Part shown: piece by piece, positions 11,276 through 54,323 of the stretch
Position numbering within the stretch: the stretch's first letter is position 1
Layout of the letters: each line of letters begins with the position of its first letter
From: Sipunculus nudus
Lineage: Eukaryota; Annelida; Sipuncula; Golfingiida; Sipunculidae
Assembly (NCBI GenBank): GCA_026874595.1
Contig: CM049307.1
Location: forward strand, 46,373,678-46,437,677
Direction of reading: 5' to 3'
Length of the DNA: 64,000 nucleotides
Translations under genes and position numbers: made by a program
The notes under the pieces: generated by a model
The model's database searches: none
What the model saw: only the letters and a program-made list of their open reading frames with translations
What the model was told of the DNA's origin: nothing

Positions 11276-12910
11276 TTTCATTGTTAGTTCACTCTGTGAA
11301 CTTATGCCATGGCGCAGCGTCCGCCGTCCACTGTCAACTGTCCACCGTCCACCGTCTGTTACCAAATATCTCAACAGCCACAGCAGCTACCTTCATGAAA
11401 CTTTGCAGAATTAATGATCATGGGATGGACATGCAAAAATAAGCTTTTGTTGGCGCCACCTATGTTGACCTACTTTCTGCGGGATGAAATGGTCTTTTCC
11501 ACTTCTTCCAAGATAAGTCATAAAGTATTAATATTTTGGCCTTCATATCATAGTCAACAGTTCCTTAGAAGAAGAGGAATAATTTGTGTGTAAATTCAGT
11601 CAGGTCATTTTCAAGATGGCGTCTCTACGGAACTTCAAATCGTGTCGATCGCAAAATATGACAACTTGATGTGTTTCCATACAGGACATATTGTCTGTTA
11701 GTAAATATCTTAGGAACTGCTGCAGCCTTCAGTTTCAAATTTCACAGGAATATCGATCATGTGACTGCTGAATGATTTTGACCTGCAGGTGGTGCCACCT
11801 GTGTTGACCTACTTTCTACAGGCTGTAATGGTCTTTTCCACTTCTTCCGAAATAAAGTCATAAAGTATTAATATTTTGGTCTTCATATCATAGTCAGCAG
11901 TTCCTTAGAGTAAGGGGAATAATTTGAGTATAAATTCAATCAAGTCTTTTTCAAGATGGCGTCTCTACAGAACTTTCAATTCTGTCGAATGCAAAATATG
12001 ACAACTTGATGTGTTTCTATACATGATGTATTGTCTGTTACCAAATATCTGAGGAACTGCTGCAGCCTTCAGTTTCAAATTTCACAGGAATATCGATCAT
12101 GTGACTGCTGAATGATTTTGACCTGAAGGTGGTGCTATCTGTGTTGACCTACTTTCTACAGGCTGTAATGGTCTTTTCTGTTTTTTCCAAGATATGTCAT
12201 AAAGTATAAATACTTTGGCTTTCACATCATAGTCAACAGTTACTAGGAGGAAGGGAAATAATAATTTTAGTATAAATTCAGTCAAGTCATTTTCAAGATG
12301 GCATATCTACGGAACTTCAAATTGTGACAATTGCAAAATTTGACAACTTGATGGTTTCCATGCAGGATGTATTGTCTGTTACCAAATATCTTAGGAACTG
12401 CTGCAGCCTTCAGTTTCAAATTTCACAGGAATATTGATCATGTGACTGCTCAATGATTTTGACCTCCAGGTGGCGCCACCTTTGTTGACCTACTTTTTGC
12501 GGGACGAAATGGTCTTTTCCACTTCTTACTAGATAAGTCACAAAGCATCAATATTTTGGCCTTCATATCATAGTCAACAGTTCCTTAGAGGAAGGGGTAT
12601 AATTTGAGTAAAAATTTAGTCAAGTCATTCTCAAGATGGCGTCTCTACGGAACTTCAAATTTTGTTGATCGTAAAATTTAGCAACTTGATGTGTTTCCAT
12701 ACATGATGTATTGTCTGTTACCAAATATCTTAGGAACTGCTGCAGCCTTCAGTTTCAAATTTCACAGGAATATTGATCATGTGACTGCTTAATGATTTTG
12801 ACCTGCAGGTAGCGCTACCTGCTTTTAGCTACTTTATCCATAATATGTCATTAAGTATTTATTTGTTATAATCTGCCAAAACAGAGTCTCCTCTGAGACT
12901 CTTGGACTGA
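11276..12910 (+). mobile_element. Rolling-circle-like element with a ~340-bp tandem array
   Basis: It starts with a hairpin-forming GTTCACTCTGTGAAC (from 11286) and a GTCCACCGTC-type simple stretch, as in the elements at 22861 and 31636. Four to five units of about 340 bp follow. Each has CTGCTGCAGCCTTCAG, a TTTCACAGGAATAT block and a GGTGGCGCCACC-like palindrome (about 11449, 11791, 12131, 12470 and 12808), mostly degenerate. The 3' end is uncertain. A hairpin GAGTCTC/GAGACTC near 12890 could be it. No open reading frame is shared between units, so the array is non-coding. Confidence 0.62.
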
Positions 12911-14389
12911 TCTTTCTGAAACATTTTTTTAATCACCTGCCAAAATGCCCAGTAATCACAGAGTGAACATTAAACCCCTGGGTCTCTTGTTTTCTGTTAA
13001 ACTGAGCAGTTGTATGCATGAGAACAGAGTAGTAGCTGTATATAAAATATTTATAAGGAAAGAAAGCACACACATATTTCACCAAAGGCAAAAAGGAGTC
13101 TTTTTGAAAGTTTAATTTATCATGCATGCACAATTGGACAAGTGACTAAATTAATACCTGTCCCTTATTCATATTTATCCAAGATAATATTACTTATAAA
13201 TCGTACATAGGCTTTGGATCGTTTGAATTTGAGGTAGCCGCTGACGGCAACAATTAAGTTTCAGGTTTCTGTTGCGTCGCCGGCCCATCAAATGGCTAAC
13301 TGGGGTTATAGCATATACGATCTGTTACTCCTAGAAAGGAAACTGAATAAAAATATTTCTTATGGTTTTAACATACCAATGTTCACTTTATGTTGTATGT
13401 CGAAATGCCTTTAACAAAAAAATACCCATTCTGGAAAGCACGAAACACCTGTAACATCAACAACTGATTTTCTTCTCCAGAGGTAATTGAAGCACTAACA
13501 GCCCGGCAGACATCTTGCATGCATTTGGGGGCAGTCCTGTAAAATGCTTTATAGGCCTGTGTATTATTATGTTCATATTTTCATTTCCTTGGTGCAAAGT
13601 AGTGCTGAGAGTAAAACAGTGTTTTTCAGCAGTTAAAAAATTAACAATATACAATACACATAGATGTACTGAACATTAATCAATGGATATACATGTATGT
13701 TAATTCTCACAGTTGTGAATGCATGGAATGTTATAATAACAGTTAACTGCAGGGGCAATCTATGGACTCCACATTGCGTCAGTTACTAAAAATCAATTGA
13801 AGAGTCCATTCTTATTGGCTTAGTTTGAGGATGCATAAGCGCTTGAAGGGGGAAGGTTGTGGGTGCATGGGGTCTGGGAAAAAATTAAAACATAAAACTA
13901 AAAATATGCATTTTAATAAGTGCAATATTTTGATCATTTCCCAATTTTTAATCACATGCTGCACCGCAAAAAAAAATCCAATACTAAATTCACAGAATCG
14001 TGTGTCAAAAATTGATAATGTATATACATTAAAATAGTCTTCTTCACATCTTAATAAAACCTTACATCAATTACTTCGTTATTAATTTTGCTCAAAACCA
14101 CAGGCGCGCTGAGTCTGAGAACGAAACAAAAATTCTGAGAGGAAAAAAAAAAAATCTGGCCCCCAACCTTGGGCCAATAAGTGGGCCCCCGGCTCCAAAG
14201 CCTATATGTTATATATTAATACAAATATGTGGCGATTTATTAGAAAATGAAAGACTGGTTTATTTATGGGAAATGGATGTTCTTGGAGGTAACCGCCTCC
14301 ATTTTTTTTTAATGCCGGCTTAACTAAGTATATATGTTCATCTGCAAATTCCATTCCGGATTCGGACTATACTTGACAGGGCAGTATCA
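12911..14389. other. Intergenic, nothing recognised
   Basis: No supported gene. The sequence is AT-rich with scattered homopolymers. The short open frames in it have no coding signature, splice sites or recognisable motifs. Confidence 0.5.
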
Positions 14390-14709
14390 CATGTACACGC
14401 TTCCTCTCATTTTATATCCTGGTGTTAACCATGCGTGGTGACTACTGCACCGGCAGGTTCTGTGTGTGTAATCGTCCCAATTACTAGGCCATAAACACCG
14501 AGGAACCCCCGAAAGGCGCACGTACTCGTTTGTGGGCGAAACACGGCGGTTGGCAGCGCATGACCTTAAGTTCCCATTAACCTGCAGAGCGCTCGCCCTG
14601 GGTAGGGACCGACCGTGAAAAATCTCACCGCCCCGGCTGAGATTCGAACTCACGATCTCCCGGCTTTGAGATCTGGGCTCTACTATATATACTAAGCCAC
14701 AGAAACCGC
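14390..14709 (-). mobile_element. tRNA-derived SINE upstream of GID4
   Basis: On the minus strand, 14709-14628 reads as a tRNA-like head. An A-box-like TGGCTTAGTATATATAG is followed by a B box GAGTTCGAATCTC (plus-strand 14639-14651). A roughly 240-bp non-tRNA body then runs to about 14390. The acceptor stem is not paired well enough for a working tRNA. It ends about 320 bp before the GID4 start codon. The 3' border and target duplication could not be fixed by eye. Confidence 0.72.
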
Positions 14710-15032
14710 GGTCAGCAATGCAGATTTTTTGTTTTAAACAATACAGATTTTAGGATTAGGGAATGCCATATATATATATAGTTATTGAAAGAAAATTTAA
14801 TCTTTTTTTCTACTTTTTTTTACATTTTTTATTTTTATTTATATAAAGATAGTGATCGAGGATATCTTTTGGGAAGGCGAAGGCAGTGGTTCGATGGTTT
14901 AGACTGCGCATAGAAAATGAATATAATTTCTGGTCCCTCAAGGACGCACACAGCGCCCTCTAGGTGTAGGATGAGAAACAACAGTCATCTCCCGGACAGC
15001 TTGGAGTTGACAGGCCAACAAGGGGAAGAAAA

Positions 15033-15191
15033 ATGCCGGTAAAAACATACAATGTCGTGGAGATGGACCCACCGCCGCCGGCAAATGCGTGTCAGCCTGG
15101 TATCTTGTCCACTCTCCTGTACAGTGGTTCCAGGTTTCAGGGTCATCAAAAGAGCAAAGGCAACTGTTACGATGTGGAAGTTGTTTTGCAG
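15033..15191 (+). CDS. GID4: GID4 exon 1
   Basis: Residues 1-53, phase 0 at the end, donor GTGCGT. Contains a short proline run (residues 13-16) and the GHQKSKGN block that begins the conserved beta-barrel. Confidence 0.95.
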
Positions 15192-16080
15192 GTGCGTGAT
15201 TAGATACCGAGATCATTGAATAATTATGACATAAACTTATTTTTAAAAAGCTGATGGCAACTTTTCCGTAGTGTAACAGAGAAAATCAGAATTAAGAACA
15301 AGGTGGATTATGTATTCTTTCAAACAGATATCAAAATTAGACCTGTTAATTGCCATGAAAAAAAGGTTATAAATTTGAAACCATTTTTCATGGTTTTACC
15401 TGAACGATAATAGGTGAATTTGCTAATTTTAATGACTGTTTCATTGTAACAAAGACATGATGCGCAGTTATTTCTTTTAGACGTTAATAGTATAATGCAT
15501 ACATTTGGCAGTCTTTTGTTTATACAATTAAATTTCCCCAAGGATGATGTGTCAGAATACTGAACAATCGGACAATTAGTTGATTCCTTGATTAATTAAT
15601 AAAGATATGAAAAAATTTTAAAGGCTTTAGAAAGGAGTCAAAAAATACAATTGATGAAGCATTATCAAAACTCCAAGTCAAAAACTAGTTAGTCCAGAGT
15701 TTTCATTCCATATTTATCTTGTTGTATATATTTCAACTGACTAAAATAAGATGAAAATTGAAAAATTAAAATGGATTTTTTTCTCAAATTTGACCAATGT
15801 AGTATTTTATGCTTTATATAGGTGATCAGGAGCGTCAATATAGGGGGAGATAGGGGGGTATATATACCCCCCACTTTTTGGCAAGGGGGGATGGCCAATG
15901 TAATCATCCCCCCCACTTTTCAGAGAATAATATAATAATATTGCAAATGAAATATTTTAATAAACAGAATTAAAAACTTTGAATCCATTTACTAAAACAT
16001 GTTATATCTAAACCTTATTTGAATTCACAAAATAACTTATTTTTTATTATAATATTATAATTATTTGAAATATAATTAAG

Positions 16081-16141
<61 letters not shown>

Positions 16142-16322
16142 TAAAACTTCGTTGTGTCGAACTCGCTTAAGTCGAATACCCCGCTTATGTCGAAGTTACA
16201 AACTCTATATTCTGGACAACTCTGGTTAAATTTTTACCAAATAAAACCCGCTTGTGTTGAATCTCGGATGTGTCGAAGCTTCTGAGGGTCCCTTCGACTT
16301 CGACACAACGAGGTTTTACTGT

Positions 16323-16353
<31 letters not shown>

Positions 16354-16397
16354 TGAATATGTCACTCAGAGACGCTGAAAAAGGTATATATTATATG

Positions 16398-16480
<83 letters not shown>

Positions 16481-19070
16481 ATCCCCCCCCCCCCCCCCCC
16501 CCAGTCTGGAAGAAAAATTGACGCCACTGTAGGTAATGCATGTTTGGGTCTTTTATAGTTGTTTCGTTTCAACATTGTTCTTATAGCTATTTATTTATAA
16601 TCCCTATGTAACTGTTTTCTGTTCACCCCTGTTACTACTATTGCTATTATTTTTATATTGATGGAATAAAACCATATCATGAGACAGGAATTTATGTCAT
16701 ATATATTTAATGTTTGCAAAATATAATAAAATGATATGTCAGTCATGTCAGTCCAGAAGAGTCCAGGACACTTGCTGCTGTGGCAATTGCAGTCACCTGT
16801 TTAAGTAGCAGTGGGATGGGTATGGTGGTTAGCTTCTTATATAATTGATTCTTGTGCTGCACAGTCTGTTGATGTAATTAGCACCACAGAATAGTCCTCC
16901 AGGCTAATGCCTACTGAACTGTTACATAACCAATCAAATGATTACCATACATATAGCTCAGTTCATGCATTACATCTGATGTTCACTGAGCAGTATTAAT
17001 TAATCACATATGAAAGTACAGGAAGTCCTACTTGTCACCTATTACTACTGCATCTGCTAACTTGCATTGGAGATATATTATTAAATTGTAAAAAAAAATA
17101 CTGTGGTTGCCTTTTTGTTCATGAGGGTTTTAATTTCGCGATATTCGCGAATGGGAAATAATCGCGAAAATCCAACCCTCGGGAATAATCGGCCAATTGA
17201 GAATGTCCTTCTTATTTAGTGTAATCAATACTTGTATGGTAATAGTTTAGAACAGAGAGAATTTTTTTAATAAATTACATCCTTGCAGGTATAGGGAAAT
17301 ATAAGCCTTAAATTTGAACTAAACCACCTATGCTGTGTGTGCGGGCCCATCATTATATAAGAAAATGTCACAAACTCATGACTTATTCTCATTTTATAAT
17401 ACACACAGGTATATGGCTTTGCCAAAGATTTGATATAGGTTCTTGTGAGATCGCGAAAATAAAACCCTCGCAAAACATTAAAAATGGAAAAATCACGAAA
17501 TTTCAGCCTCGCGAATATGAAGCCAACCACAGTGTTGTTTGCACTTATAATTTTACATTCAGTTTAAACATGATCTGTCATGTGTTCAAGTTTCTGTCTT
17601 GTTATTGGACTAGTTTGCAAACCAGCTGTTTTATCTATATAATATATCTAGGATCATTACTCTTATACTCTGGCAGTAATTTAGAAGTAAACCAATGTTA
17701 CACCTTGCAAAGATTTTGGAGAGAGATAGAAAGTAAAAGATAAATAACTAATACATAGTGATATCTACTGATTATGAAAAATATATTGAAATATGAATTT
17801 GCGTGACTTTCAGCATGTGGACATGGAGAATTCCTATCTCTGTGGTTATCTAAAGATTCACGGTCTGACAGAAGAGTTTCCAATGCTAACCACATTTTTT
17901 GATGGGGAAATTATCAGCCAGAAGCACCGTTTCCTAACGAGGAAATGGGATGCTGATGAAGACGTGGACAGGAAACACTGGGTGCGTGTGACCATACAAA
18001 AAAAAACTAAATGTTTTTTGGGTACATTGCTCATATTTTTTTGTGGATCCAAATTTTTATATTACAGATCTAGACTATAGGTCCTTGGTAATATTGCTAA
18101 TTTGGGCTATAGCACCAAATCCTTAAAAGAATTCTTAAAGGTATGAAAAATTGACAAAATTTTATGTTTAGTAAATATACCCAATTTCTATATTTGAAAC
18201 AAATTATTGTATTTTCTTTGCAAGCTCGTAAACTTCCACTTTCTGTGGAATTCCCCATTTGCATGTTGATTTTTGTTCCCTGAGTCTTTAGAAAAATAAT
18301 TATTTTAGTGTTAGCCATTTAGAGACTACTGAATGCCACCAGCTGTTCCATGGAGAGTGCCTAGCATTCAGTATCATACTTGTTTGCATAATCAATGTAA
18401 TATAAATAAAAAGTTAATTTTAAATGTTTATTTTATTGCCCATTCTGGTTTCTAATAGTACCACCAGATGGCACCCTGTGTAAGATATGCAAGGTTGAGT
18501 TTGCTGACATCTTGCATGATGCCTAGTTTCTTTCCATCATACTCACAGCAAAACCCTATAATATTAATGTTCATGTTATTGTATATTTTGGGATTTTGTT
18601 AGAAGTGCCTTATTATAAATTGTTTTGTTGGATTAAATTTAAGAAAACAAATTAACGCACTGATTCAGACATATGGCCTCTAACCATGAAAAGTTTGCAA
18701 TAAACACAGAGTTCTTGAGACTTATATAAGGTTTCAAAAGACATATTTTTTATGTCTGGGTTATTTTTTATTTGACGAGATCTTTTTTTTTAAGTATTGA
18801 TCCTAAAATTATGAATCCAACACAAATCTGTTCATTGTATGAAGTCATTGAATTTTGGTTGCTTTCAAGTTTTTTGTGTGTGTTGCTAAATGTTTATAGA
18901 TGAGCTGTTGGCCCTCATGGCTTGTTTTTAATTAAAAGTAATTTTTTCTTGCAGGGAAAATTTACCTCTTTTGACAGTTTTGCAAAATCATTCAACTCTG
19001 ATAACTTTGACTATGAAGGACTGAAAGACACAGACTTCGTCTTCATGAGATGGAAGGTATGTAGTCAAAT

Positions 19071-22860: not shown

Positions 22861-25050
22861 TTTTTAGCGAACCTGTGAGCTTATGCGATGGTGCGGAGTC
22901 GTCTGTCGTACGTCTTGTGTCATGCGTCGTACGTTGTGCGTTGTGTATCGTCTGTACGTTAACCATAGCTATCTCAAAAACGGCAGGAGCTAGCATCACC
23001 AAAGTTTTTGCAAATAATCAGTCATCCAAAAAACTATGTCGGATTTTGTTTATATTTTTTCTCACTGCATTTTCTTAGATTTTATAGGGAAAAAGCTAAA
23101 AAAGCTTTAAAAATCTTCTCCGACGAAACTGTCCAGCCAAATTGTCCTGTATTTCACAGAAATGATCCCTAGATCAATCTCTCTCAAATTTGTTCGAATG
23201 GTTCCAGTTTGAAGATTTTTGGCCGAGTTACAGGAGGTTGAACTTAGTCATCTGTCCAAAAAAGCACACTAAAATTAAAATATCAGAAACAGCTAGAGCA
23301 ATAAACACCAAATTTTATACCAATGTTTGTCACATATGTCATATCTGATTTTGAGGTATTGGTGGCGCCACCTACATTGATGTGTTTTTTACAAGCGAAA
23401 ATGTACTTTTAAACTCTTCCAGCTCATACACTGATTTATGATGAAACTGTTAAGCTGATTGGTTTAAACTTTAAAAGAATTATTCTATGGTAGGGTTCTG
23501 ACAGTTTTATAAGAAAAGATTGGGTAAATACAGTTTTAAAAAAGCATTGTAGCCAATTGAAAAAGGCTTTCTGTATTTGAAAACAGACTGAGTTTCAGAA
23601 GCCAAGTCAAAAGGTCACTCAGTACAGACAGGTGGGGTCCAGACATCACCATGGCAACTGACCTGGCTCTGGGGGGTGTCTAGACAATGTGTCTAGGCGT
23701 CTAGACACAGCGTCTAGAAGTCTAGACAATGTTTAGATGCAGAATTCCCAGCTTATTGGAACTATATCTTTCAACTGTTTGAAAAGACTTGGTTTGCATT
23801 TTAAGCGAATCGGGTTCATCATCAAGTCACATGTGAACTGCAACACCCTCATTTTTGGTTGACCTCTGACCTTTCCTCACTGCCCAGCATCCATTTGTGC
23901 GTCTGTTTCCACACATAAACCCGCATATCTTGGGAACCGTTTGACCGATCAGGCTAAAAATTTTGCACAAATGTAGCCCTTTGAAAGCTTTATAACATAC
24001 ACTAAAAATGGTGGCACCACCTTCAACCATTTTTACACAGCGTCCATCTGTTCATCTGCCTTGGGATAATATCACTCATATCTCAGCAGTGGTTAGACTT
24101 ATCCACCTGAAATTTTGCAGGTTTATACATCCTGGACACATTTCTCGATTTTATGACAGGTGGCGCCACGTACATTCACATTTACTCTGCAGACATCCAA
24201 GCTCATATCTCGGGAACCGTTTGACCCATTGGGCCAAAATTTTGCATGTGTATAGATTTCACATAGCTCTTCATCATTGGCAAAACTGGTGGCGCCACCT
24301 GCAACCACTTATGCACAGCGTCCATCTGTTAATCTGCCTTGGGATAATATCACTCATATTTCAGAAGTGGTTTGACTTATCCACCTGAAATTTTGCAGGT
24401 TTATACATCCTGGACAGCTTTCTTGATTTTATGACAGGTGGCGCCACCTACATTCACGTTTACTTTGCAGACATCCAAGCTGATATCTTGGGAACCGTTT
24501 GACTGATTGGGCCAAAATTTTGCTTGTGTAACGATCACGCAAAGCTCTTCATCATAAGCAAAACTGGTGGCGCCACCTGCAACCACTTTTGAACACCGTC
24601 CATCTGTTCATCTGTCTTGGGGTAAAATCACTCATATCTCAGCAGTGGTTTGACTTATCCACCTGAAATTTCGCAGGTTTGTACATCCTGGACAATTTTC
24701 TCAATTTTATGACAGGTGGCACCACCTACATTCATGTGTATGCTGCAGACATCCATGCTAATATGCAACACACCTCACTCTTTTCCCCTTGCCACTTAAT
24801 CCATGCCTCACTTCACCCGTCCCACTCTGATTTCTGTGGATACACATAGTCGGTTGTCGACTGCCCATATTCTAGTTTTAAAATGTCCTAGTCTGAAACT
24901 TGCAGGTCTGAAATGTCCATTTTGCTGAAATCATAAAGACTAAGGTAGATATGCAGGACTTAAAGGATCAATATTAAATTTTAAAAATAAACCTCTATTC
25001 ATACTCCCAAACTTTGCACAGGTTCGCATTAGGCCTGTAGGCCTTGTTTA
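22861..25050 (+). mobile_element. Helentron-like non-autonomous element (HINE type)
   Basis: The 5' end TTTTTAGCGAACCTGTGAGC carries GCGAACCTGTG (22867-22877). Its exact inverted copy CACAGGTTCGC lies at 25017-25027, just before a terminal hairpin AGGCCTGTAGGCCT (25031-25044) and TTGTTTA. Subterminal inverted repeats with a 3' hairpin are described for Helentrons. Inside are a CGTACGTTGTGCG-type simple stretch, one GGTGGCGCCACC-containing unit (23361) and a second, Helitron-like element (to 24875). No replicase or helicase coding sequence was seen. Confidence 0.7.
23815..24875 (+). mobile_element. Helitron-like element with tandem subrepeats, ending CTAG
   Basis: The 3' end shows hairpin AGTCG/CGACT (24848-24862), nine bases, then CTAG (24872-24875) followed by T, the classic Helitron terminus. 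The body is a dimeric repeat of about 270-280 bp with TATCTCGGGAACCGTTTGAC and GGTGGCGCCACC palindromes (24163 degenerate, then 24287, 24436, 24565 and a mutated one at 24716). It is a relative of the element at 33709-34868. The 5' end is not recognisable; 23815 marks where the homology starts. Confidence 0.68.
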
Positions 25051-31635: not shown

Positions 31636-31739
31636 GTTTTTTAGCTCAGCTGACTGAAAGTCATCTGAGCTATAGCGATCACTCTTTGTCCGTCGTCCGT
31701 CTGTCCGTCTGTCCGTCTGTCCGTCCGTTAACCAGGCAC

Positions 31740-33708
31740 AAATCGTAACCGCTGGACCTAGAACCTTGTAACTTGGGATTCTGAGAGGTCCATAAAAAAT
31801 CTCTTTGGAAACCAGAAATTAGGTCTCTGTTACCCATATCCTTCGAGCTATGTGGCCCCAAAGTACCCCCCAGAAAAGTCAAAAATTTCATACAAAAACT
31901 TCAATATCTCATTAACTACTTGACTGATGGTCATGATTTTTGGCATACATATTGATCATGAGATGTTACATCACTTCCTGCAGACTGGTGGCGCCACCTG
32001 TATTTTTCGATTTTTTACGAATTTTTTTCTCTATTTTTGAGACCTTTAAAAATGTGAACATCTGTTAACAAGGCACAAATCATAAAGACTGGACTTAGAA
32101 TCTTAATTCTTGACACACTGAGAGGTCCATGAAAAATCTCCTTGGAAACCAGAAATTAGGTCTCTGTTACCCATATCCTTTGAGCTATGGGGCCCCAAAG
32201 TACCCCCCAGAATAGTAAAAAAATCATACAAAAACTTCAATATCTCAATAACTACATCACTGATGGTCTTCATTTTTGGCATACATATTGATCATGAGAT
32301 GTTCGATCAGTTCCTGCAGACTGGTGGCGCCACCTGTACTGTTTGATTTTTTACGATTTTTTCCTCTATTTTTGAGACCTTTGAGGATGCTGTCATCTGT
32401 TAGCGTGGCACAAATCATAACGACTGGACCTAGAATCTTCATTTTCGACACACTGAGAGACCTATGAAAAGTCTCCATGGAAACCAGAAATTAGGTCTCT
32501 GTTACCCATATCCTTCGAGCTATGGGGCCCAAAATTACCACCCAGAATAGTCAAAAATTTCATACAAAAACTTCAATATCTCATTAACTACATCACTGAT
32601 GGTCATGATTTTCAACATACATATTGATCATGAGATGTTTCATCAGTTTGTGCAGACTGGTGGCGCCACCTGTATTTTTCAATGTTCAGGAATTGTTTTC
32701 TCCATTTTTGAGACCTTTAAGATGTAGTTATCTGTCAACAGGGTACAAATCGTAACGACTGGACCTAGAATCTTCGTTCTTGACACACAGGGAGACCCAT
32801 GATAAGTCTCCATGGAAACCTGAAATTTGGTCTCTGTTACCCATATCCTTTGAGCTATGGCACTCCAAAGTACAGCTCAGAATAATGGAAAATTTGATAC
32901 AAAAGCTAAAGTATCTGAACAACTAATGCAGAGATAACCATAATTGTTTGCATGGATATTGATCATGGAGTGTTTCATAAGTTTCTGCAGACTGGTTGCA
33001 CCACCTGTATTTGTTCGTTTTTTTTTTACGAAATTTTTCTGTATTTTTGAGACCTTTAAAGATATGAACATCTGTTAACAGGGCACAAATCATAAAAACT
33101 GGACCAAGAATCTTCATTCTTGACACACAGGGAGACCCATGAAAAGTCTCCATGGAAACTTGAAATTAGGTCTCTGTTACCCATATTCTTTAAGCTGTAT
33201 GGGTCCAAAATACCCCCCCCCCCCCCCAGAATAATGGAAAATTTGATACAAAAACTGCAGTATTTCAATAACTACAACACTGATGGTCATGATTTTCGGC
33301 ATACATATTGATCATGAGCTGTTCCATCAGTTTCTGCAGACTGGGTGTGCCACCTCTATTTTTTTTTCAAATTTTTACGAATTTTTTTCTTTTTTTTTGA
33401 GACCTTTAAAGATGTGGTTATCTGTCAACAGGGTACAAATCGCAACAACTGGACCTAGAATCTTCATTCTTGTCATGCAAGGAGGCCCATGAAAGGTGCC
33501 TGTGGAAACTTGAAATTAGGTCTCTGTTACCCATATCCTTCAAGCTATAGGACTCCGAAGTATCCCTCAGAATAATGGACAATTTGATACAAAAACTGAA
33601 GTATCTGAACAACTAATGCAGAGATCACCATGATTTTTTGCATGGATATTGACCATTAAGTGTTTTTATTAGTTTCTGCAGACTGGTGGAGCCACCTGTA
33701 TTTTTGTA
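31740..33708. repeat. Tandem array, ~337-bp unit, about six copies
   Basis: Each unit reads GGACCTAGAATCTTCATT, TCCATGGAAAC, AGGTCTCTGTTACCCATATCC, a CCCCAAAGTACC block, CTTCAATATCTCA, ATTGATCATGAGATGTT and GACTGGTGGCGCCACCTGT, each quoted in short pieces. The palindrome is intact at about 31987, 32324 and 32660 and mutated at 32996, 33345 and 33686. Older, more diverged units lie to the right. Not protein-coding. Confidence 0.9.
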
Positions 33709-34868
33709 TCCGCCAAAACGAAGTTTTGCGGATACTATGTTTTTGACCGAGTTCCTCCGCCGCGGCGGCGTTCGTTTCCAGAGAGCTCCTCGGAGACTAA
33801 TGGACCGATTTTTCCCAAACTTACACCTATTATCGGGTCACATGTGAACTGGTGCCTAACCAATTTGCATTGACCTCTGACCTTTCCTCTCTATCCAGTG
33901 TCCATTTGTGGGTCTGTTTCCACTCATAAACCCTCATATCTCGGGAACCGTTTGATCGATCAGGAAATAAAATTGATACAAATGTACCCCTTGGATTGCT
34001 TTATAACATACACAAAAAATGGTGGCGCCACCTGTAACCATGTTTGCACAGTGTCCATCTGTTCATCTGCCTTGGGTTAAAATCACTCATATCTCTGCAG
34101 TGAATTGACTAATTCACCTTAAATTCGTCATGTGTATACATCCAGGATAGCTTTCTTGATTTTATGACAGGTGGCGCCACCTACGTTCACGTTCACGCTG
34201 ATGACATCCAAGCTTATATCTCGGGAACCGTTTGACCGATCAGGAAATAAAATTTATACAAATGTAGCCCTTTGATAGCTCTGTAACATACACAAAAAAT
34301 GGTGGCGCCACCTGTAACAATGTTTGCACAGCGTCTGTCTGTTAGTCTGCCGTGGCCTAAAATTACTCATTTCTCTGTAGTGGTTCGACATAACTGCCTA
34401 AAATTTTGCAGGTTTATACATCGTGGACAGCTTTCTTGATTTTATGACAGGTGGCGCCACCTACATTCTAGTTAACGCTGGACACATCCAAGCTCATATC
34501 TCAGGAACCATTTGACCGATTGGGCCAAAATTGTGCATGTGTTTAGATCTCACATAGGTCTTTATCATACACAAAACTGGTGGCGCCACCTGCAAAGATT
34601 TTTGCACAGTGTTTGTCTGCCATGGGCAAAAATCGCTCATATACATGTAGTGGTTTGACTTTTCTGCCTAAAATTTTGCAGGTGTATACAACTTGGACAG
34701 CTTTCTGGATCTGTGGTAGGTGGCACAACCTACATACACATTTAGGCTGCAGACATCCATGCTAATATGCAACATACCTCACTCTATTTCCCCTTGCCAC
34801 TCAATCCATGCCTCACTATCCAATTTTGGCAGATACATGTAGTCACTTGTCGGTTACCCGTATTCTAG
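33709..34868 (+). mobile_element. Helitron-like element inserted in the array
   Basis: It starts TCCGCCAAAACGAAGTTTTG (a 5' hairpin) directly after A, and ends ATTCTAG (34862-34868) before T. This gives the A/T insertion site and the TC...CTAG ends of Helitrons. A CCGCCGCGGCGGCG stretch follows the 5' end. The body has dimeric subrepeats with TATCTCGGGAACCGTTTGAC and intact GGTGGCGCCACC palindromes at about 34020, 34169, 34302, 34449 and 34578. It is non-autonomous, and the 3' hairpin is degenerate. It shares a body with 23815-24875. Confidence 0.72.
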
Positions 34869-35099
34869 TTTTAAAAGTTTACACATTTTTCTCTATTTTT
34901 GAGATATATAAATACAGACTAAATCTTGGCCTGTTGGTTAATCTGTTTGATGCTTCAGTTGAATGGGTATATACTACCATTCTGATGATAAAATTTCCTT
35001 TTGCGAATCTCTTCCCAGTCAGCTGAGCGTCATGACCCATGGGTCACTTGTTTAATTGAATCGGCGGTTTGTTTAATGGTTTATGACCATCATAAATGA

Positions 35100-41288: not shown

Positions 41289-44200
41289 ATACAGAGATGA
41301 CGAAAATCATTTACGTAAAACTCTCTTGAGTAGGCATTAGCTCGGTGGTAAATGGGTAAACTGATGCCGCAAATAAGGAAAACTTTCAACTTAAATCCAG
41401 AGATCAAAACGGAAATGCTTTGATTTGTTTACTCTTCCTATATAACTTTATAGGGCTTGATAAACTTATATAACAGAGATAAACACCCTTGTTATTTTAT
41501 GATTATCATCATCCCGATTCAATAGATAGTGCTGATTACAGTACATATATGCTTGCAATAACCTTTCAAAACTGTTGATTTACCCGCCGGTTCATCTCCA
41601 TACTATAATTTATATTATATCAGGTCAGTGGCAGCTACCAGTTACGCTTTCACAGAACTTGATTCAGCGAGCAGCTCTGGCGTAAAATTTATGAAAAATG
41701 GAGTTGAAGCAATCAGATGGCCCGCGTCCAGTTAACTGTTTTACGCTGACGTCTAGCGCGATATTTAGGAACGTTAAGAATTTCCGGGAAGGCATCAAGA
41801 ATCTGACCAATCAAATAAAGCCATACAAGCCTGTCCAGTTCCTGGTGTCAGGTGTTCTTGTCCAGACGGCGTGTGAACAGTGTATTGTTTATATTTTGTT
41901 TCATTGGATTTTATTGGCAGTTGTCATTTTGGCCCGAACACTTGCAGGCGTGTCCATTATTCACGAAATAGACGCTAGAGCGGCTCACTGAATCAAGGTC
42001 TGTGCAGCGTAGCTAAGGACCTGGTAGTATGAAGGTGCGCCGCTTCCCCGGTAAATACATACTGCTGAAAAGGAAAATCATGCATTAATGAGTCTGCTGT
42101 AATTTGAAGAGCTGTAAAGTTGCAGAACAGAATTTTGCACTATAAGTTCATAGCCGTATAGCGTGAAAACAGTGACTGACTCAAATAATCATTGTATCCC
42201 CAGACAAAGTCGGGGGATACTATGTTTTCATACCGGTCCCGCCGCCGCCGCCGCCGCCGCCGCCACCGCCCCCGCCGCCGCATATAAATCTTGTTGGCGC
42301 GATAACCCAAAAAATATTTCACGGAACTTTACCAAACTTGGTATATGTATAGATATGGGTAAGAGGACGACGCCTATTTAAAATGAGGTCATGACCTTTA
42401 CTAGGAGAGTGTCCTTGACCTTGAATAGGTCCAATTTTGGGGAAAATCACACAAATTCTTTAATATCTCAAGAAATCTTGCATAGGTTTATCCTAAAATC
42501 AAGTTGATGGAAGATCATGGATAGGGTTGTCATGTTCCAGAAACTGGTGGCGCCACCTATTATTTTTTACTTGTTTTCATGCCGTTTAATACTCCCAAAA
42601 TTGCCACCTTACAGTACTGTGAGCATTTTAAGTCAAAAACTAAAGGACAGATTTCTTTTATATTATGCATATACATAGGTATGGGTTATGGGATGATGGT
42701 TATTTAAATTGGGGTCATGACCTTTCCTATGTTAGTGGCCTTGACCTTGAATATTGCCATATATGGTGAAAATCACACTCCTCTTATGATATCTCCAGTG
42801 TTGATAGCCATATAGATTTCAAACATGACTTATGTATGGCCCACCACTAAAGTAAGAACCCTATAGGTTCTAGGGTCATGAGGTCAAAGGTCAAGGTCAC
42901 TGGACTGGCATTTTAAAATATACTGTGGATGCATTTTAAGCCAAACTTTCATCCTAGGTCTTCCATCTTGAATATATAGCTCACTTGCCAATAGTGGATG
43001 ATCCATAGAAATCTTGGGGTCACAAGGTCGAAGGTCAAGGCCACAGGAGCTATCTGTCCAAAAATTAGTTTCTGGATGATAATTCCTTCTTTTATTGATG
43101 TATGGATTTCAAACTTGACTTGTATTTGACCCATTGGAAAAGCAAGACCTGAATTGATTTTGGGGTCATGAGGTCAAAGGTCAAGGTCACAGGAAACCTC
43201 TTTAAAAAGGTTGTGGATGCAATTTCAGCCAAAAAACACATCTGAGATCTTTCATCTTGCACATATAGTTCACCTGCCAAGAGTGGAAGACCCCTATCAA
43301 TTGTGAGGTCACCAGGTCAAAGGTGAAGGTCACAGGAGCCATCTGTCCAAAAATTAGTTTCTGGATGATAATTCCTTCTTTTATTGATGTATGGATTTCA
43401 AAATTGACTTGTATTTGACCCATTGGAAAAGCAAGACCCGAATTGATTTTGGGGTCATGAGGTCAAAGGTCAAGGTCACAGGAAACCTCTTTATAAAGGT
43501 TGTGGATGCAATTTCAGCCAAAAAATTCATCTCAGATCTTTCATCTTGCACATATAGTTCTCCTGCCAAGAGAGGAAGAACACTATCAATTGTGAGGTCA
43601 CAAGGTGAAGGGGGAAGGTCACAGGAGCCACCTGTAAAAAAAAATTAGTTTCTGGATGATAATTCCTGCTTTATTGATGTATAGATTTCAAACTTGACTT
43701 GCATATGTCCCATTGGAAAAGCAAGACCCAAATTGATTTTGGGGTCATGAGGTCAAAGGTCAAGGTCACAGGACACATCTTTAAAACAATCAAGGTCACA
43801 GGACCAACATCTTCAACAAGATTGTGGATTGTTAGATGGAAGAAACAATAAATATGCCAAGTGTCAGTATATGCTGCCAAAATTGGGAGTCTGTTCTTAA
43901 AGGGGGGGGGGGGGCTACTATGTCTGGGGATACTCTGGCACCTGCGGTGCCAAGAAATGTCTAGTTATTAAATGGATGTACAAATGATACAGATATTGAA
44001 ATAGTTAAAATATTGGATCTACAATTTGATTGGCCTCCACTGTGTGAGCACAGTCAATCTCCGTATACAGAGATTATATCGTGATATAAAAACGTTTTGT
44101 TTCAGTTAGTTTATCTGTACAATTTCCATCTAAATAGCGTTTCATGAGTTTTCAAATTTTACGTTTTACTGGGAATTATCATGAATAATACAACTATTCG

Positions 44201-46083: not shown

Positions 46084-49000
46084 AAGGAAACAATATCTAG
46101 AGGATAAACTGATTACATGATAGCGCTATATATACCTTTGATAGTGTATACTCTCGTGCAACAATACACACATGCATGGGCTTCAAGTACATATATTAAA
46201 GCGGTCCATTCTAGCTGTATGTTACAAAGTCGTATGTGTACTTTCCAGCTAATATTGATATACACTTTATTTAGAAAAAGAAAAAAAAAGGAAGAAAGGA
46301 ATGGCTTATATACTTTTTCAAAGGATCGGTCTCGTCCGGTATCAATTGAGTTGCACAGGCTACTGAATGACTACGAAAACCTTATGAAAAGTATACCAGT
46401 CCTTCACCAGATTTCAGGTTTATATTAACATGATTCGGAATATCCCAGGGTTCATTACCTGCATGTACTTCAGATATTAGAGAGAAAACTACAGGGCTCC
46501 CAACCAGATTTCACCATCCAGATTTCGCCAGCTCCTGTGTTATCCTTATTTTTAATCATTTTCTTCTCGGTAACATTTTCATATTCGTTGCAAAGGACCA
46601 GTTTTAATTATCTTTCTGCATGCGTGGAGAGCAAACGCAAAATGTTTTACTCCGATTTGTGACACTGTATATATAGAGACTCCAACATGGTGAATACATG
46701 CATGGATTGGGGGGGGGGGGGGGGGTTCGATTAAGGGTCCACTCGAAAATTCGAAACTGGTTTCGGTTCCGGGAACACTGGTTCAATATGGTTTCGTCTT
46801 GTATTTATAATTATACGGTTTCGGTTTCAATGGACAATTCTGATAACATCGTAAAATATTTAATATAATTAAATGAATATTTTCAAAAGTTAGAGGTCCC
46901 TGCCATTTTTTTAGACCAAGTGAGAGCATTTTTAATTGTGACTGGCCAATTTATATTGCATTTACGATGAAAATAGACTATCGTTCTGTGTCCTATAGCT
47001 CTGCAGGGTGAAAGTATAAGTAACACTTAATTCTAAACACTTCCGAAAGAATGTTAATATCTCAGTCTTTGGTTATTTAACTCTAAAAGGCATCAACAGT
47101 ATCAATAAATACAATAATTAACAAAATAGCACTATACTTTGGCCCTCCGCCGCACTGATGCAAGTATAATTATCATGTGGACGGTTTGGGCGAAACGTAA
47201 ACCGAAACCATCTCCAGAGATGGTTTCGTATTTGCCAAAACCAGTTTCGGTTTCTCTATAATTAAGTGAACTGTTTCCAGAAGTGGCCGAAATCGAAACC
47301 AGTTTCGAATTTTCGAGTGGAGCCCTAAACGCTAATCAGATGCGCTGAGAAGTTCTGTCGGAGTATTTCTGTAAATATATGAAACTGAACATCACTATGA
47401 AGGCATATGATTACTCAAAGGTGATTACGTCCTCGCTCTGTCGGGCATGCAAGCGCTTCGTCCGTAAGCTAAACAACTGGTTCAGAAGTAATATATGTTA
47501 TGCCCCGAAACAAATCCGTCATATCTCTTGGTAACTAATATTATATATAGTGCAATCGTTTGTACTCTCCGAACCCAAATAAAAATCCCCGGCCAGTCGG
47601 TAGTGTTGGTGTAAAATGTAGGGAATGGCGACAAAAACGTACTGTTGTCTGTATACCCGTTCTCATTGCACGTGCAGATGGACTGACGGGTATTACGAAA
47701 CCATAGCGAAACCCTGAGTCACAGATACGATCGTGGATCATCCCTGCTGTAAACATTATTCCCAGACGGGTATATCTATGACCACCAGTGACGAAGCAGT
47801 GTAACGTACCGCAAGCGTGTGCGTTCTGCGCTGTAACTACTATATAGGCTACAGCAATTACAACACGTTTAGCACGGCAGCCAGACCCAGAAAAATGGAC
47901 GATCGTAAAATTCAGACGGGCACATTCCTGCCATGTAACTTTGACAGGTACATACGATCTGTATATGTAATAAAGATGCATGGAAGAACTGTTGGTGCAC
48001 GTGTCAGCTTTCTGGAAAATATGAAGAGATTAAATGACAACCAAGGTTGATTTGGCAAAATGCTAATGTGTAAAAAACATGGACGGACTGGGACGCCCAT
48101 AGTGGTTAAAGTCTTTGGCCCATGAGCTGCGCTCCATTGTGACCAAAATTCACGCCTACACAATGAATGGCTGTTTTACTTTTTACAAGTGTCAGTCAAA
48201 GTATACATATACAGTGGATCCTCGAGTATATTAATTAATACCATGGTACAATTGTTCGTATCATTGATCCTTTGGAAATCGAGTGTCAGATTACTCATAC
48301 ACGGAATATTAAAATAAATATGATTTTCATTTCGGCAAAAAAAAAAAGAATTTAAGAAAATAGGTGTTCGGATAGCTACAACGCATTCAAGAAATGCCCG
48401 GGTCTTTACATTCATGATCGGAAAAATGTTGTCCAGAAGATCCATGAGAACGTTCAGACTGTCTATCTGTCTTACTCTTTTTCTCTCTCTCATATAAATG
48501 TGAGTCCGTTGGTATTTTAACTGTCGCACGTTTTCGTTTGAGCTTTTACCTTATTCTTTGTTTGAAATATCAGGTATACATCTAGCTTAAATATCTATAT
48601 ATACGCAAAACACGTGGTATATGTTTGTCAAAGCAAATTTATTTCAAGACCTCTAGACTTTGTTTAATTTTTTTTGCACCCCATATTGAAATCAGAGTCC
48701 ACCATCACATCTTACTTATCCCAATACCACACATCTGAACTATTTTTGGTGATTATCAGTGGGAAACAATTATTCAGCCGGAACGTCGCACTATGAATCG
48801 GGCTGACAAGAGGTGTTGACACCCCTAATTAGTGACAGGCAGGAGACAGGGAACACACAAGAAGGAAGCTGCAGAAATCGCCCCCATGACAAAACTGCAC
48901 TCAGTTCGCATTTGTCTTATTAAGCAGACACCTGTCAACACTCAGTCCATGCGTCTATATACGTATATAATAAGTGCGTGCGCAGCTGAAAATGACATCC

Positions 49001-52000
49001 CCACCACCGTCACTCTTGCGAGCGTTGCAGACCTCCATTCCATTTCTATTCAGTATGACATCACAGAATTGTTTCTCAGATCAACTTTTCAGTAAAATGG
49101 CAAGTGATATTTTTTGGGATTGCCTCGCCTGATTAGACTGCGCCACGTATCGACGATTTTCTTTTTTTTAAACAAATGTTTAAAGTTTCACTAGAATTGC
49201 TCATGTGCAACACAATATGTTAAAATCTTGTTCTACATGCCAAGAATAACTCCTGTTTCTCTTCGCTGGATTTTGTGTTGAACGCTCTTAATAGATTTTC
49301 TTATTCATTAACATGTACATATTTCGGAATTTAGATTGCCAAATTGTAGATTTTATTTGTAGCAAAATCAACGATGTGACATTTATGAAGATCGACATGG
49401 TACCATTCTGTTTGCATGGTAATATATATAGTCTTAATTGAAGAATTAAAATGGGGCAATTATTTTATTGACCAACGGAAAGTAGGTCAGGCACTTAGAA
49501 CAATACAAGAAGAGCACCCGGCTTTCAGGGTGCAAACAATCAAAGATTGCGTTGAAGCTCACAGAATAAAGGTAATGATGACAAATTTCAGGTAGCTAAA
49601 GTGATTTCCCTGGATATTCAGTTCGAAGGTTCCAGTCCCAATAGTTATAGGATGAATGCCCTGTACACGGCCGGACAGAAGGACGGACGGACAAAGACGA
49701 AATACAGTCAGCTGGGCTATATTTTCCTACAAAAACTATATGTTAACGGCTATAGTTCTTCCATTGTTTAAGAAGAGGTAATTACATTTTAAGAAGAGGT
49801 GATTTTAGTCTAATATGGTTTTCAACAAATCAGAAACAAGTGTTCATTTCTGAGGATCCATTAACATTACTGGATGCGGAACTAATGTGATTTTCAATTT
49901 TCTGGCGGTGACATGATATACGGTGTAATCCCGTCTCGGTTGTGTAAAATGCTTAAAGCATAATTTTCATACAGGCCTAAACTGTCTGATAGGTTGAACG
50001 TTTGAACGATTTCCTGAGCAAAGTAATTTCTTATTTTCATTTTCACCGTGAAGCTATCCTCATGGGTTTCTTGTAAATATAAAGATATTTTCATGTAAAC
50101 CATAGTTTGTTTATCGCGCCCCGGTTAAATTTTTGTGGTTGACGGAGGAATGTGCTTTCTGAATGTGCCCTCTTTCTATTATATATATTTGGCATAGTCT
50201 TCCTGTTTAGCATATATACGTTTCTTTTAGTCCGAAGGGGTATGTATGTTGTTATATTGTGCTGCATATACATGAAACGTGACAAAAAGACATCTGCATA
50301 GTTTCATTAATTTGTACATTAATTGCTCTGGTTAAATTTTGAGTGGACTTTGTTGTAGCAACATGGGTTGGCGAAGGAATGTGCTCTTTAAATGCTTTCT
50401 ATTTTATTTGTCTGCTCTTTATGGTTCTTATACTAGCTGTATCCATTGAGTACCTGAGTATAGCAAGACTGTTGAACGGGATTTAATATATTATGACATG
50501 CATGGAATAACTCTCAACCCGGGATGAATTTTTACTAAATGATTAAGCCTTCTTTATCATGCCCACGCAGATATTCGGCGGAAATATACATGACTGTCTT
50601 GTTTACCGGTCCTGGTTTATGACGGCGCCTTGGCAGCGATTAACCCAGAACAACTGAGTGATGGGTCATATATTTTTAACAAACCTGCATGCACATGCAC
50701 TCATTAGAGAGCACGGATACCCATGTCAGCCTTGTTGGGTTTAGTATATAGCTCGTTAATTAGATAAGATGTCTTCTTTGGACGAGCAAAACTGCCTCTG
50801 ATTGTGACAGAAACTAGTCTGTTTTTTTTATGTGACAGAGGGTTGTTTATTCTCCGGGCTCTTTATCTTTTCACAGCTTCACAGTCTTTTTCAGTTTCCA
50901 TGGCCTGTGTATATAATATCACTTCATTTGGGAGGACTAGGTCGGTCTCTTTGGACTTTCTTTTTCGAACGAGTATAATATATTTTTTTATCTTTTGCAT
51001 ATAGTTTTCCTGTTTAGCATATACGCTTCTTATAATCCATATTAGTGCATGTGTATATATGACATATTATGCTGCATACACGTACATGAAATATGACGAA
51101 AAAATATGCGTTTTTTTTTTTCATTCGTATATATTCCAATGGTTGGCTGGAAAATAGGCCCCAGTGTCTGCACTGACAAATCACAGCCCTTATGATAAAT
51201 GAATATACTAACATTTTTCGCGGGTGGTTTTGCGTAATAACACACAGAGTGCACCCTGACGGTCGTACAACAACTCTTCTGGACCACAGCCAACACGGCT
51301 GTCTCAGGCCTTGCTCTTTTACCAGCCTCTTCAGCAACTATCACTGACTTCATAGGACTGTCGTCACCTCCGTTAACGATACGGGGAAAAGTTTGATAAT
51401 CACTGTCTGTCTGTTTGTTTGTCCGTAAGGCAGAACAATTTACCATGATGGATATCCATGAAATTTCGTGAAGCTGTCGGATTGTAATGTGAAAAGGGTT
51501 AAATATATCGAGCTCCAGCTGCATTAAAAGCTAGATGCACAGTTACATTTGTCTGTTTGTCAGTTACACTTTGTCAGTTACATTTGTCTGTTTAGACACT
51601 ATTAAGAATGAGATCAAACTTATTTTTACATCTGGCGGGGACGTACTTGCTGTTTGTGAGAATATGAGATATCATTGAAGAAGAGCCCTTCAAATTTTAG
51701 GGGTGATCCATAAGTAAGGCAAATGTTTGCGTTTTCTTAGCGTAGCAACATTAAACAGCATGTAGTTCCTGTCAGTTCTAGGGATGTGTTGCAATGAAGT
51801 GCCTAAGTCATCTGGGCGACTTAAGTCATCGGACATCTGTGTGTCACTATATAGTAACCATTATGACATCACAATTGTGATTATGGAAATAAGACCTGCT
51901 TCTGGGCTTAAGTCTTGTATAATGTTAAAACTAGATGGATCAGCATGCAGCATGAGGGGAGGTATGTTTTCCTGTGTAAAACCCGTCGACGTTGATAAAG

Positions 52001-52600
52001 AGCTTCACACCCATGCTGATGATATGAATCACTGCTCCAAATGATAGTTACACTAGATAACACTTCCGTTTCCCCTCCCCCATGCAGACGAAGGGTATTC
52101 ATACCATATTTATGTACGGTGTGACTTTGCGACTGGTTCTGTGAATTATGGCCAGAACTGAAATGATGGCACTACTTTTGTTTCACTTTTGGTTCCCTTA
52201 AGTTTTGCAACTGATACCTTAAATATGATATTAAAATAAATTGAAATAATTCCTTTCTCAAAGAGCAAATATGACAAACCCATAGAGGTTTTGCCGGTTT
52301 GGTGGACTGCCCTTTAATTTTATGGAACATAATAGAAAAGGGCCTGACTATAATTATAAAACACTGTGCTAAATAAACGGAAACCTTTTTTCCGTTTGTA
52401 AGCTGTATAAGTAACTGGTCCAGCCCAACAAAGAGTGGGTACATTTTCTAGTTGTATCATTTCACTGGGACAGAATGTTAAGATTTAAAAAAAAAAATTA
52501 TATTTGGGGTACCAAGCTAGAATTTTATTCACCTGTACCTGAACTTATAATATCCGCAAAATGTATATTTTAGATCCGACTAAACATCAATAATATGTTT

Positions 52601-52663
<63 letters not shown>

Positions 52664-54323
52664 TACTCAATTTGTGTATATCTGACCAGGACATTCTAGC
52701 CAAAGACGCAGTCTCCATGCATGGATATGTTGTTGGCCTACATGCACACCCATGCATGCAGACCAAGATTGTCAAAGGATGACATCATGAAAAAAACCCA
52801 CACCAATTCTGCTGCCACATCACATAACCTCTCCTTATCTTTGAGTGCTTGTTTTGTCAGCTTAATTTTTTGGGTGTGCTTGGTGTCTTTCCGGTGTTAC
52901 CCACGAGTGCCGTCTGGTTTATCCCGGGGACGACCCAAAGTGCTTGATCCACAGACTGTCAGTCTATGCGGAGACCTCCACATGACACGCCAGCTCACGT
53001 CCCTTGTTGTCTGTCCGATATAAAAGACACTAGTTTTATCAGTTACTGATAACTGGTGGTGCCACCTGTATTTTTTTCTATTTTAATTTTTAACGGGTTT
53101 TTCCCTCTGTTTTTGAGACTGTCAATTTACATCAATGCTGTCTGTTTGCAACTGTGGTTAAATCTAGTGATATCATCCGATGAGTGAACTTTTAAAAGTG
53201 TTAATATTTTGTTAATTCACATTGAAATAGCCTAAATTTCTGACCAGTTTTTGGATATCATTCACGTCCTCTGTTAATAGTCTGATATAGTCTGAACATA
53301 TACAGTGGATTCTGTCTGAAAGACCACCTCTCTAATAAGACCCACCTGTCTATACGCTCTTTACACAGCGCTTTACCTATAGGGCTACTACCTATATCGT
53401 AAGGCGCTGTTTGTTATGACCTCGTATCCTGAATTGCAACACCAGAGGGGAGCACTGTATTTTTGTCCAATCAGATGAGACCTTGTGCTGGAAGACAAAG
53501 CCAAGCGAGGAATACACAGAGCCAATCATATTAATTTCTTTTTGAGTGACAGCTCATCCCCCAGCGTAACCGTCTGAACAGGCCACAGGCTCAGAGAGAA
53601 TTGCCCCTGACGTGGTTTGCTTAGGGCCTTGGGCACATAGGATGCTCGGCCGGTGAGCTGTAATTCAAACGAAACGTAACAACAAAGGCTGCGTGCACAC
53701 CTCGCTTGCTGGTTTCAGTTCTGCAGACAACAGATACATGGCTACGCTAACACAGTCATAATGTCATAATCGAATCGGTCGATGATGCGAGAATGCAGAG
53801 GACGCAATTTAAATTCGACCGGAAACTCAATAAGCGGCGCTTGAAGCGCAGCAATGGGCGGAGCCAGGATACCTGTCAGTGTTTGTTTATTGGCATCTGA
53901 TTGGCTGCTTGTCACATCATACGCACGTTTATTTCAGTGGAAAACGAACCGCGATCTGGTGTCTAAATATATCATAAACGGTCAAAGCTGGCAGCGTGAA
54001 AATCAGTTGCTTCTTTAGAAGCGCTTCTTTAGAAGCGCAAGATTTCCGCTGCCTTGGGAGCGTTACCTGTCTAATAAGATCACCCTTGAGTGAACCAAAA
54101 ACATAAAAACATATACATACGTTATAACCTGACCTGTCCGATTAGACTTCCTGTGAACTAAGACCGAACGTGGTCAGTAGCACGGGTTTCACTGTACATT
54201 ATAACATCCATGGATCCAATGCTTTCTCATCGGAACATGCAAAGATTTTGAGACTACAAATTGTTCATATGTAACTGGAAATTCCATTACGTCCATTTAT
54301 AATGTATAATAATATTTATAACA

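Follow-up and report, generated by a model that had tools for sequence, protein, structure and literature searches.

A conserved 12-bp palindrome in HINE-like tandem arrays of Sipunculus nudus, a candidate protein-binding site

Background

Among described systems, the closest to the repeats considered here are the HINEs, non-autonomous Helentrons that include Cg_HINE of Crassostrea gigas; in the accessible portions of two papers they are marked by subterminal inverted repeats of 12-15 bp, a stem-loop near the 3' end, a microsatellite followed by tandem units, and insertion at T-rich (TT) sequence (PMC4067079, PMC7492417). The present study concerns a palindrome of 12 letters, GGTGGCGCCACC, that recurs in several tandem arrays within a 64,000-nucleotide stretch of the Sipunculus nudus genome (assembly GCA_026874595.1, contig CM049307.1, positions 46,373,678 to 46,437,677), hereafter called the window. 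The elements that carry these arrays, of which A, C and F have HINE-type (Helentron-like) ends, resemble Cg_HINE in their subterminal inverted repeats, 5' inverted repeat, microsatellite and central tandem array and, in element F, 3' stem-loop (PMC7492417, PMC4067079, same portions), and also in that related arrays occur in elements with different ends and that two conserved segments are found in otherwise dissimilar units (PMC7492417). Unlike the arrays studied here, however, those of Cg_HINE are not described as having a common GGTGGCGCCACC in the available text of either paper.

Comparison may be extended to the Pearl family and the BIV160/Cg170 satellites, which in the excerpts consulted have monomers of about 160-170 bp, two conserved motifs and Helitron-type carriers (PMC5139131, PMC6934838, PMC7348941); the A and C units described below are about twice as long. 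Identity with BIV160 itself was unsupported, as the published primers matched the window at best at 18/25 and 16/21 positions, and a BIV160-like monomer gave no profile match. The phBglII400 satellite of Ruditapes likewise has a 12-bp palindrome in its unit, where it marks junctions, the likeness being one of description because the letters are not in the text seen (PMC5139131). In mammals, as far as the abstracted account goes, retrotransposons have dispersed CTCF sites (PMC3368268), which would be a parallel case of a mobile element spreading a binding site if the CTCF lead discussed below holds; the present case differs in the rolling-circle type of the element, in the arrayed and palindromic nature of the sites, and in that binding is only predicted. 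A literature search for this palindrome in rolling-circle elements or tandem repeats found no description in the text that could be searched, the exact 12-mer surfacing in one paper, on an endochitinase. What appears to be new here is this particular palindrome, its phase with ATATCTC, its spread over multiple families and its copy number, two-segment HINE units being already known from oysters in the accessible text of PMC7492417.

Results

Abundance of the palindrome

Both the window and the 1.43-Gb assembly (153 contigs; designated G000 in the coordinates below, with the window on contig C2) were searched for GGTGGCGCCACC. Its recurrence in the window, claimed in an earlier note on this DNA, was confirmed: there were 14 exact copies, all within one base of where that note had placed them, against a mean of 0 in dinucleotide shuffles, and 24 copies when up to two mismatches were allowed, against a shuffle mean of 0.56 and maximum of 3, so that enrichment over shuffled controls was evident at both settings. 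Degenerate copies were likewise present at 11449, 11788, 12128 and 53055 (the last had been given as 53051). Among palindromic 12-mers other than TA runs, GGTGGCGCCACC ranked first in the window, and the runner-up had 2 copies. Genome-wide, the exact palindrome occurred 111,729 times, as opposed to 14 times for CCACCGCGGTGG, a control obtained by reading it backwards; the total for GGTNNNNNNACC was 416,956, against 274,049 for its control. A further sample was assembled, without regard to the motif, from 10-kb pieces at round coordinates of contigs 1-10 (20 pieces, 200 kb); it held 20 exact copies, spread over 7 pieces, where the genome-wide count predicts 15.7, and 4 copies of the next non-simple palindromic 12-mer. 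The earlier view of one palindrome, exact or degenerate, in each unit held in array A (340-bp units) and array C (336-bp units), and in B and D when their half-units of 149 and 129-131 bp are counted; the sites at 23361, 42546 and 53055 stand singly.

The immediate flanks of the palindrome were not symmetric. The base after it was T in 14 of 14 window copies and in 61 of the 62 exact sites of a wider sample, and the base before it, in the same 62 sites, was T (38) or A (24); sites too near the end of a locus were left out of this and all other slot, flank, compensation and ATATCTC-offset counts on sampled DNA. The flanking motifs proposed earlier (ACTG or ACA before, TGT or TAC after) were thus borne out only in part, namely in the T that follows every exact copy of the window. 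Because of this asymmetry, the site is oriented, and the opposite strand nearly always begins with AGGTGGCGC.

A shared module with a fixed ATATCTC phase

The palindrome was found to end a module of about 95 bp, in which ATATCTC is followed by a AAATTTTGCA-like stretch and then by the palindrome itself, 81-85 bp after the start of ATATCTC. An ATATCTC-like block was located 83 bp upstream of the palindrome in 5/5 A units, 4/6 C units, the E and F units and 3/6 units of family BD1, 85 bp upstream in the other three BD1 units, and 81 bp upstream in 5/6 units of family BD2; in units C4, C6 and D2c the block was looked for and none was clear. The exact arrangement ATATCTC-N(66-86)-palindrome occurred 9 times in the window and 64,415 times genome-wide (32,454+31,961), as against 0 for the reversed control and 206 (120+86) for an equally wide off-phase gap of 30-50, so that up to 58% of all palindromes in the genome have a perfect ATATCTC in phase. 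In sampled DNA, 35 ATATCTC occurrences fell at offsets -87 to -79 and 3 at the remaining offsets of -150 to -1, and outside the window a block with at least 6/7 ATATCTC matches was present at 37/54 sites versus 271/2,000 random places.

Profiles were built with one family left out and the palindrome masked, the 53055 relic being excluded from family profiles and alignments. They recovered the omitted family at best E-values of 1e-9 for A, 3.8e-8 for BD1 and 3.4e-8 for BD2, recovery of C being weak (0.013). Ungapped module identity between families averaged 0.361, while the null averaged 0.265 and its largest value in 300 was 0.310. Judged from these profiles, three of the six families have well-supported common descent in the module even with the palindrome set aside, and A, BD1 and BD2 at the least, with C as a probable fourth, would share a homologous module; this ancestry is old and carried by a small number of blocks, the case for E and F depending chiefly on phase. 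Since the units are homologous in the module, inheritance can explain the presence of the palindrome, and convergence, one of the causes suggested in the earlier note, is not required. The same note had described the arrays as differing in their other sequence, which needs amendment, as the units have the ATATCTC-phased module in common, although the families do differ at over half of its positions.

Conservation of the palindrome beyond the module

Inheritance does not account for how well the palindrome is kept. In an alignment of 25 modules, identity between families was 0.914 in the palindrome, compared with 0.454 upstream and 0.434 downstream of it; the best other 12-column window, ATATCTCATTAA, reached 0.694, and none of 20,000 column permutations attained 0.914 (largest 0.844). 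When any one family was dropped, the value for the palindrome stayed at 0.897-0.941. Within arrays, the palindrome was better kept than the unit in BD2 (0.90 vs 0.809) and BD1 (0.972 vs 0.735).

A count that did not make use of the palindrome was obtained with a profile of the upstream part alone, which detected 31 units in the 200-kb sample at E<=1e-4. Taking the best of 11 offsets, the slots of these units held 14 exact palindromes, 13 with 1-3 mismatches and 4 with at least 5; since the units were found by the upstream profile, in DNA not picked by the motif, this count is less exposed to ascertainment. When the loci on contig C1 that had been selected through the motif and the window, including the units used for training, were added to the 200 kb, the sampled DNA yielded 124 module units in all, of which 57 had an exact slot, 56 had 1-3 mismatches and 11 had at least 4. 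Conversely, a module match at E<=1 accompanied 62 of 68 exact palindromes, leaving six without. Among 59 degenerate slots, 40 of the 93 changes fell on the two central positions, chiefly as C6>T (17) and G7>A (15), which has the pattern of CpG deamination. The slot at 12808, GGTAGCGCTACC, has two changes and is still a perfect palindrome; overall, symmetric changes were not in excess.

As judged from these alignments, the palindrome is inherited and also unusually conserved, and such excess conservation, going beyond that of the module, needs a cause beyond inheritance. The alternative that the units are homologous over their full length, with the motif simply inherited and no better kept than its surroundings, did not hold. 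The central CpG decays most and yet persists in every family, which argues for selection at the level of the element; inserted copies seem to decay, and the constraint would act on the active lineages.

Contents of the slot in units without the palindrome

A profile lacking the slot gave 18 further matches in arrays; in 10 of these the predicted slot began right at a GGT../TGACC-type site or no more than two or three bases from it, one was the 53055 relic, and 7 had no site. Three units of array F had predicted slots of the GGGGTCATGAGGTCAA type, and also in F the AGGGTCATGAGG at 42872 follows an ATATCTC at a distance of exactly 83 bp. The pattern ATATCTC-N(70-80)-GGGTCATGA occurred 1,116+1,116 times genome-wide versus 3+1, but the 19 places displayed look like one family (F), and the figure thus reflects copy number and not independent evidence. 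GGTCA/TGACC was present in four of five slot groups, compared with 3.9% of window 22-mers and 17-32% in those arrays, but element F supplies two of the four groups, and positions 42872 and 23864 were assigned by eye and not by the profile; the C half-units had none. Exchange of slot contents between families is a hypothesis that these matches suggest. Units of array F (42873-43786) contain GAGGTCAAAGGTCAAGGTCACAGG, a run of half-sites that we take to be nuclear-receptor-like. The predicted slots of array Q57 hold TTGACCTTCATCTTCAAGGTCA-like inverted half-sites. Arrangements of half-sites such as those in the alternative slots go by the names DR1 and IR0.

Host elements and arrays

The features of the window are collected in Table 1. 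Tandem Repeats Finder gave periods of 340 bp for array A, 278 bp for B (149+129), 335 bp for C and 280 bp for D. Of the five element regions (A, C, D, E/B and F), three, namely A, C and F, have perfect 13-bp pairs of subterminal inverted repeats; the E/B region had one of 8 bp only, and no exact pair of at least 8 bp was found in D. Hairpins were present at the 5' ends of A, D and F and at the 3' end of F, a search for 3' stem-loops returning 6-bp stems only in the 3' region of A and none of at least 6 bp in D and E/B. Microsatellites precede the arrays, of CGTCCAC type in A, GTCC in C and CCG in F. Element D was inserted in a C unit, within a run of T, with TTTT after its CTAG and C-like sequence resuming beyond, in the one case available. 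The earlier idea that the palindrome bridges Helentron-like and Helitron-like elements stands in that the motif spans several element families; the contrast is weaker than claimed, as A, C and F all have HINE-type ends. Helitron_like_N matches in the genome numbered 143 or more, including 7 that lie in open frames longer than 2,200 amino acids, so that potentially autonomous rolling-circle elements exist in it (for example around G000:C4:36174940 and C13:66180677), putative partners of the A, C and F elements.

Table 1. Positions of elements, arrays and slots in the window
Feature	Position	Strand	Remarks
Element A, 5' subterminal inverted repeat, 13 bp	11287..11299	+	within 5' hairpin 11286-11302
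Element A, 3' subterminal inverted repeat	12956..12968	-	
Array A, 340-bp units	11451..12835	+	slots 11449, 11788, 12128, 12469 (exact), 12808
Exact palindrome, unit E	23361..23372	+	module match significant only with E in training set
Array B, alternating 149/129-bp half-units	24004..24764	+	slots 24010, 24159, 24288, 24437, 24566, 24715
Element C, 5' subterminal inverted repeat, 13 bp	31644..31656	+	
Array C, ~336-bp units	31727..33705	+	slots 31987, 32323, 32659, 32994, 33343, 33685
Predicted slots TAGGTCTCTGTTACCC, second half of C units	32492, 33517	+	weak, scores 4.7, 2.4
Element C, 3' subterminal inverted repeat	35016..35028	-	beyond nested element D
Element D, nested in C-array unit	33706..34868	+	5' hairpin 33706-33735; ends CTAG at 34868
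Predicted slot CATTGACCTCTGACCT, leader unit of D, no palindrome	33868..33883	+	weak, score 3.8
Array D	33936..34768	+	slots 34021, 34170, 34301, 34450, 34579, 34719
Element F, 5' subterminal inverted repeat, 13 bp	42194..42206	+	within 5' hairpin 42194-42220
Predicted slot GAGGTCATGACC, F unit	42385..42396	+	score 9.2
Exact palindrome, unit F1	42546..42557	+	ATATCTC 83 bp upstream
Predicted slot GGGGTCATGACC, F unit	42711..42722	+	score 4.1
Rest of array F	42873..43786	+	slots of GGGTCATGAGGTCAAAGGTCA type; weak profile scores -0.2 to 2.3
Element F, 3' end	43921..43952	+	subterminal inverted repeat 43921-43933; 3' hairpin 43936-43952
Degenerate palindrome GGTGGTGCCACC	53055..53066	+	relic; C-like sequence downstream (by eye)
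Array Q57, 147-bp repeat, no palindrome	57370..57831	+	weak predicted slots
Predicted slots CGGTGATCTTGACC, CGGTGACCTTGACC, array Q57	57464, 57611	+	weak, scores 2.6, 3.6

Several other observations were made on these regions. A short 21-bp tandem array of GTCTAGACAATGTGTCTAGAA adjoins unit E at 23678-23732. In array A, the other half of the unit (11600-11640 and later units) holds CAAGATGGCGTCTC, which we take to resemble a YY1 site. Six near-identical F units spaced by about 2.6-2.9 kb at G000:C1:1405070-1418890 indicate that F elements have apparently been tandemly duplicated, and larger tandem repeats are hinted at by palindrome-bearing units at intervals of 10.2-10.4 kb in six places (G000:C1:3700497-3752385) and every 3,553 bp in four places (G000:C5:91242045-91252704). 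A 502-codon open stretch at 5188-6693 (+) adjoins a 193-codon one at 4586 and had no Pfam match at E<=0.01. An Rfam scan of the window gave no match at gathering scores.

Search for relatives outside the genome

In viral contigs, TGGTGGCGCCACCT was found in at least 120 stretches (80 among the matches listed, with one match each), and a BLAST comparison of 122 loci with the window gave no alignment at 1e-4. GAGGTCAAAGGTCAAGGTCA was found in one viral contig, which is of 61% GC and without tandem repeats. The arrangement of ATATCTC, gap and palindrome was encountered in 3 viral and 5 prokaryotic places, with no array within 321-351 bp in the three viral ones or within 400 bp in that of Saprospiraceae. 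BLAST of the window against the collected outside loci (L001-L128) gave nothing at 1e-2.

Discussion

We propose that GGTGGCGCCACC is a candidate duplex protein-binding site that would have been kept while the elements were active and would have aided their amplification or expression, a proposal that we regard as an even call. In active elements, a sequence-specific protein would bind the palindrome as duplex DNA, and such binding would help the element to be amplified or expressed; the arrays would raise local binding, in the manner of iterons or enhancer arrays. Retention of the CpG, the weakness of the hairpin, the absence of symmetric compensation and the fixed phase, taken together, are best read as pointing to protein-bound duplex DNA. 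In some sister units the same slot appears to hold other short sites, often nuclear-receptor-like GGTCA/TGACC half-sites, as would be expected if the position serves protein binding. A CTCF-like zinc-finger protein would be one candidate binder.

A number of results weigh against this proposal. The families were spotted through the shared motif and their pieces cut at a fixed distance from it, and the conservation figure is therefore in part an effect of ascertainment. Within array A the palindrome was no better kept than the unit (0.80 vs 0.806), and within array C it had only a slight edge (0.85 vs 0.806). As to the module, the profile matches of E and F, when these were left out of training, were not significant (E 1.1 and 0.92), though correctly placed; BD2, aligned without gaps, was at chance level against the other families (0.26-0.32); and global gapped identity between clusters, at 0.598, was barely higher than that of shuffled sequence (0.561, sd 0.034). 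As to the slot, the seven predictions without any site include the best scorer (22970, 10.5), the ten with sites scored low (-0.2 to 9.2, where 20 shuffles reached 6.1), and the leader units of B and D aligned with B/D units no better than shuffles did (13, 10 and 13, the shuffles reaching 17, 14 and 16).

The homology of the module, seen at a minimum in A, BD1 and BD2 and probable in C, would also suit an inherited passenger with a role in recombination, in which the palindrome marks the point where units recombine or tandemize, and the turnover of arrays keeps it uniform without any binding protein. Related arrays are indeed carried by elements with different termini, and the 12-bp palindrome of the clam satellite phBglII400 coincides with 13 of the 16 junctions of its arrays (PMC5139131). 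However, homogenization inside arrays does not account for identity between families whose modules differ at more than half of their positions, and arrays B and D, by eye, have their 3' ends near the ATATCTC block and not the palindrome, although array A does end about 16 bp past its last one; this passenger reading is on the unlikely side. A structural role of a different kind would be that of a single-strand hairpin, serving termination or pausing in rolling-circle replication. The palindrome does sit in rolling-circle elements, element F has a real 3' hairpin, and one of three palindrome sites folds better than most shuffles (z -2.30; 6/200). Nonetheless, the folding energies of the three, -3.4, -3.8 and -5.2 kcal/mol (z -1.15, -2.30 and -1.43), fall short of the -7.4 (z -3.50) of the F hairpin, symmetric compensating changes were seen in 3 of 48 pairs where the null gives 4.2, and the flanking bases are asymmetric, so that a hairpin function has a very low probability.

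A more specific version of protein binding is that of a site for a CTCF-type architectural protein, one strand of the palindrome being AGGTGGCGC, the CTCF core. Short interspersed nuclear elements (SINEs) disperse CTCF sites in mammals, and the present elements might do likewise. A CTCF site is not palindromic, and it is for this reason that CTCF itself is rated as improbable. Moreover, the second half of the palindrome (CACC) is conserved about as much as the first, which is unexpected for a CTCF site; the upstream part of the motif is poor in most families, by eye; and with so many known factors, a chance match to one of them is likely. On the other side, 61 of 62 exact sites carry AGGTGGCGC in the orientation opposite to that of the unit, and the same core is carried by a wild-type CTCF site oligonucleotide in the accessible text of PMC6925871.

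Returning to the proposal of a bound duplex site, its boldest extension is that the repeat units are carriers of a fixed-phase slot, 83 bp after ATATCTC, whose occupant is exchanged, being GGTGGCGCCACC in some units and a nuclear-receptor-like site in others, and that more than 100,000 identical putative sites, possibly for a CTCF-like protein, may shape chromatin; we consider this extension quite unlikely. If it were true, sites seeded by these elements may act on chromatin as retrotransposon-borne CTCF sites do in mammals. A 12-bp site that is kept across diverged families, in fixed phase and in more than 100,000 copies, offers a concrete handle on the function, if any, of the internal arrays of HINEs, and binding of GGTGGCGCCACC by a host protein, if it occurs, would make these elements a large reservoir of candidate regulatory sites in the genome.

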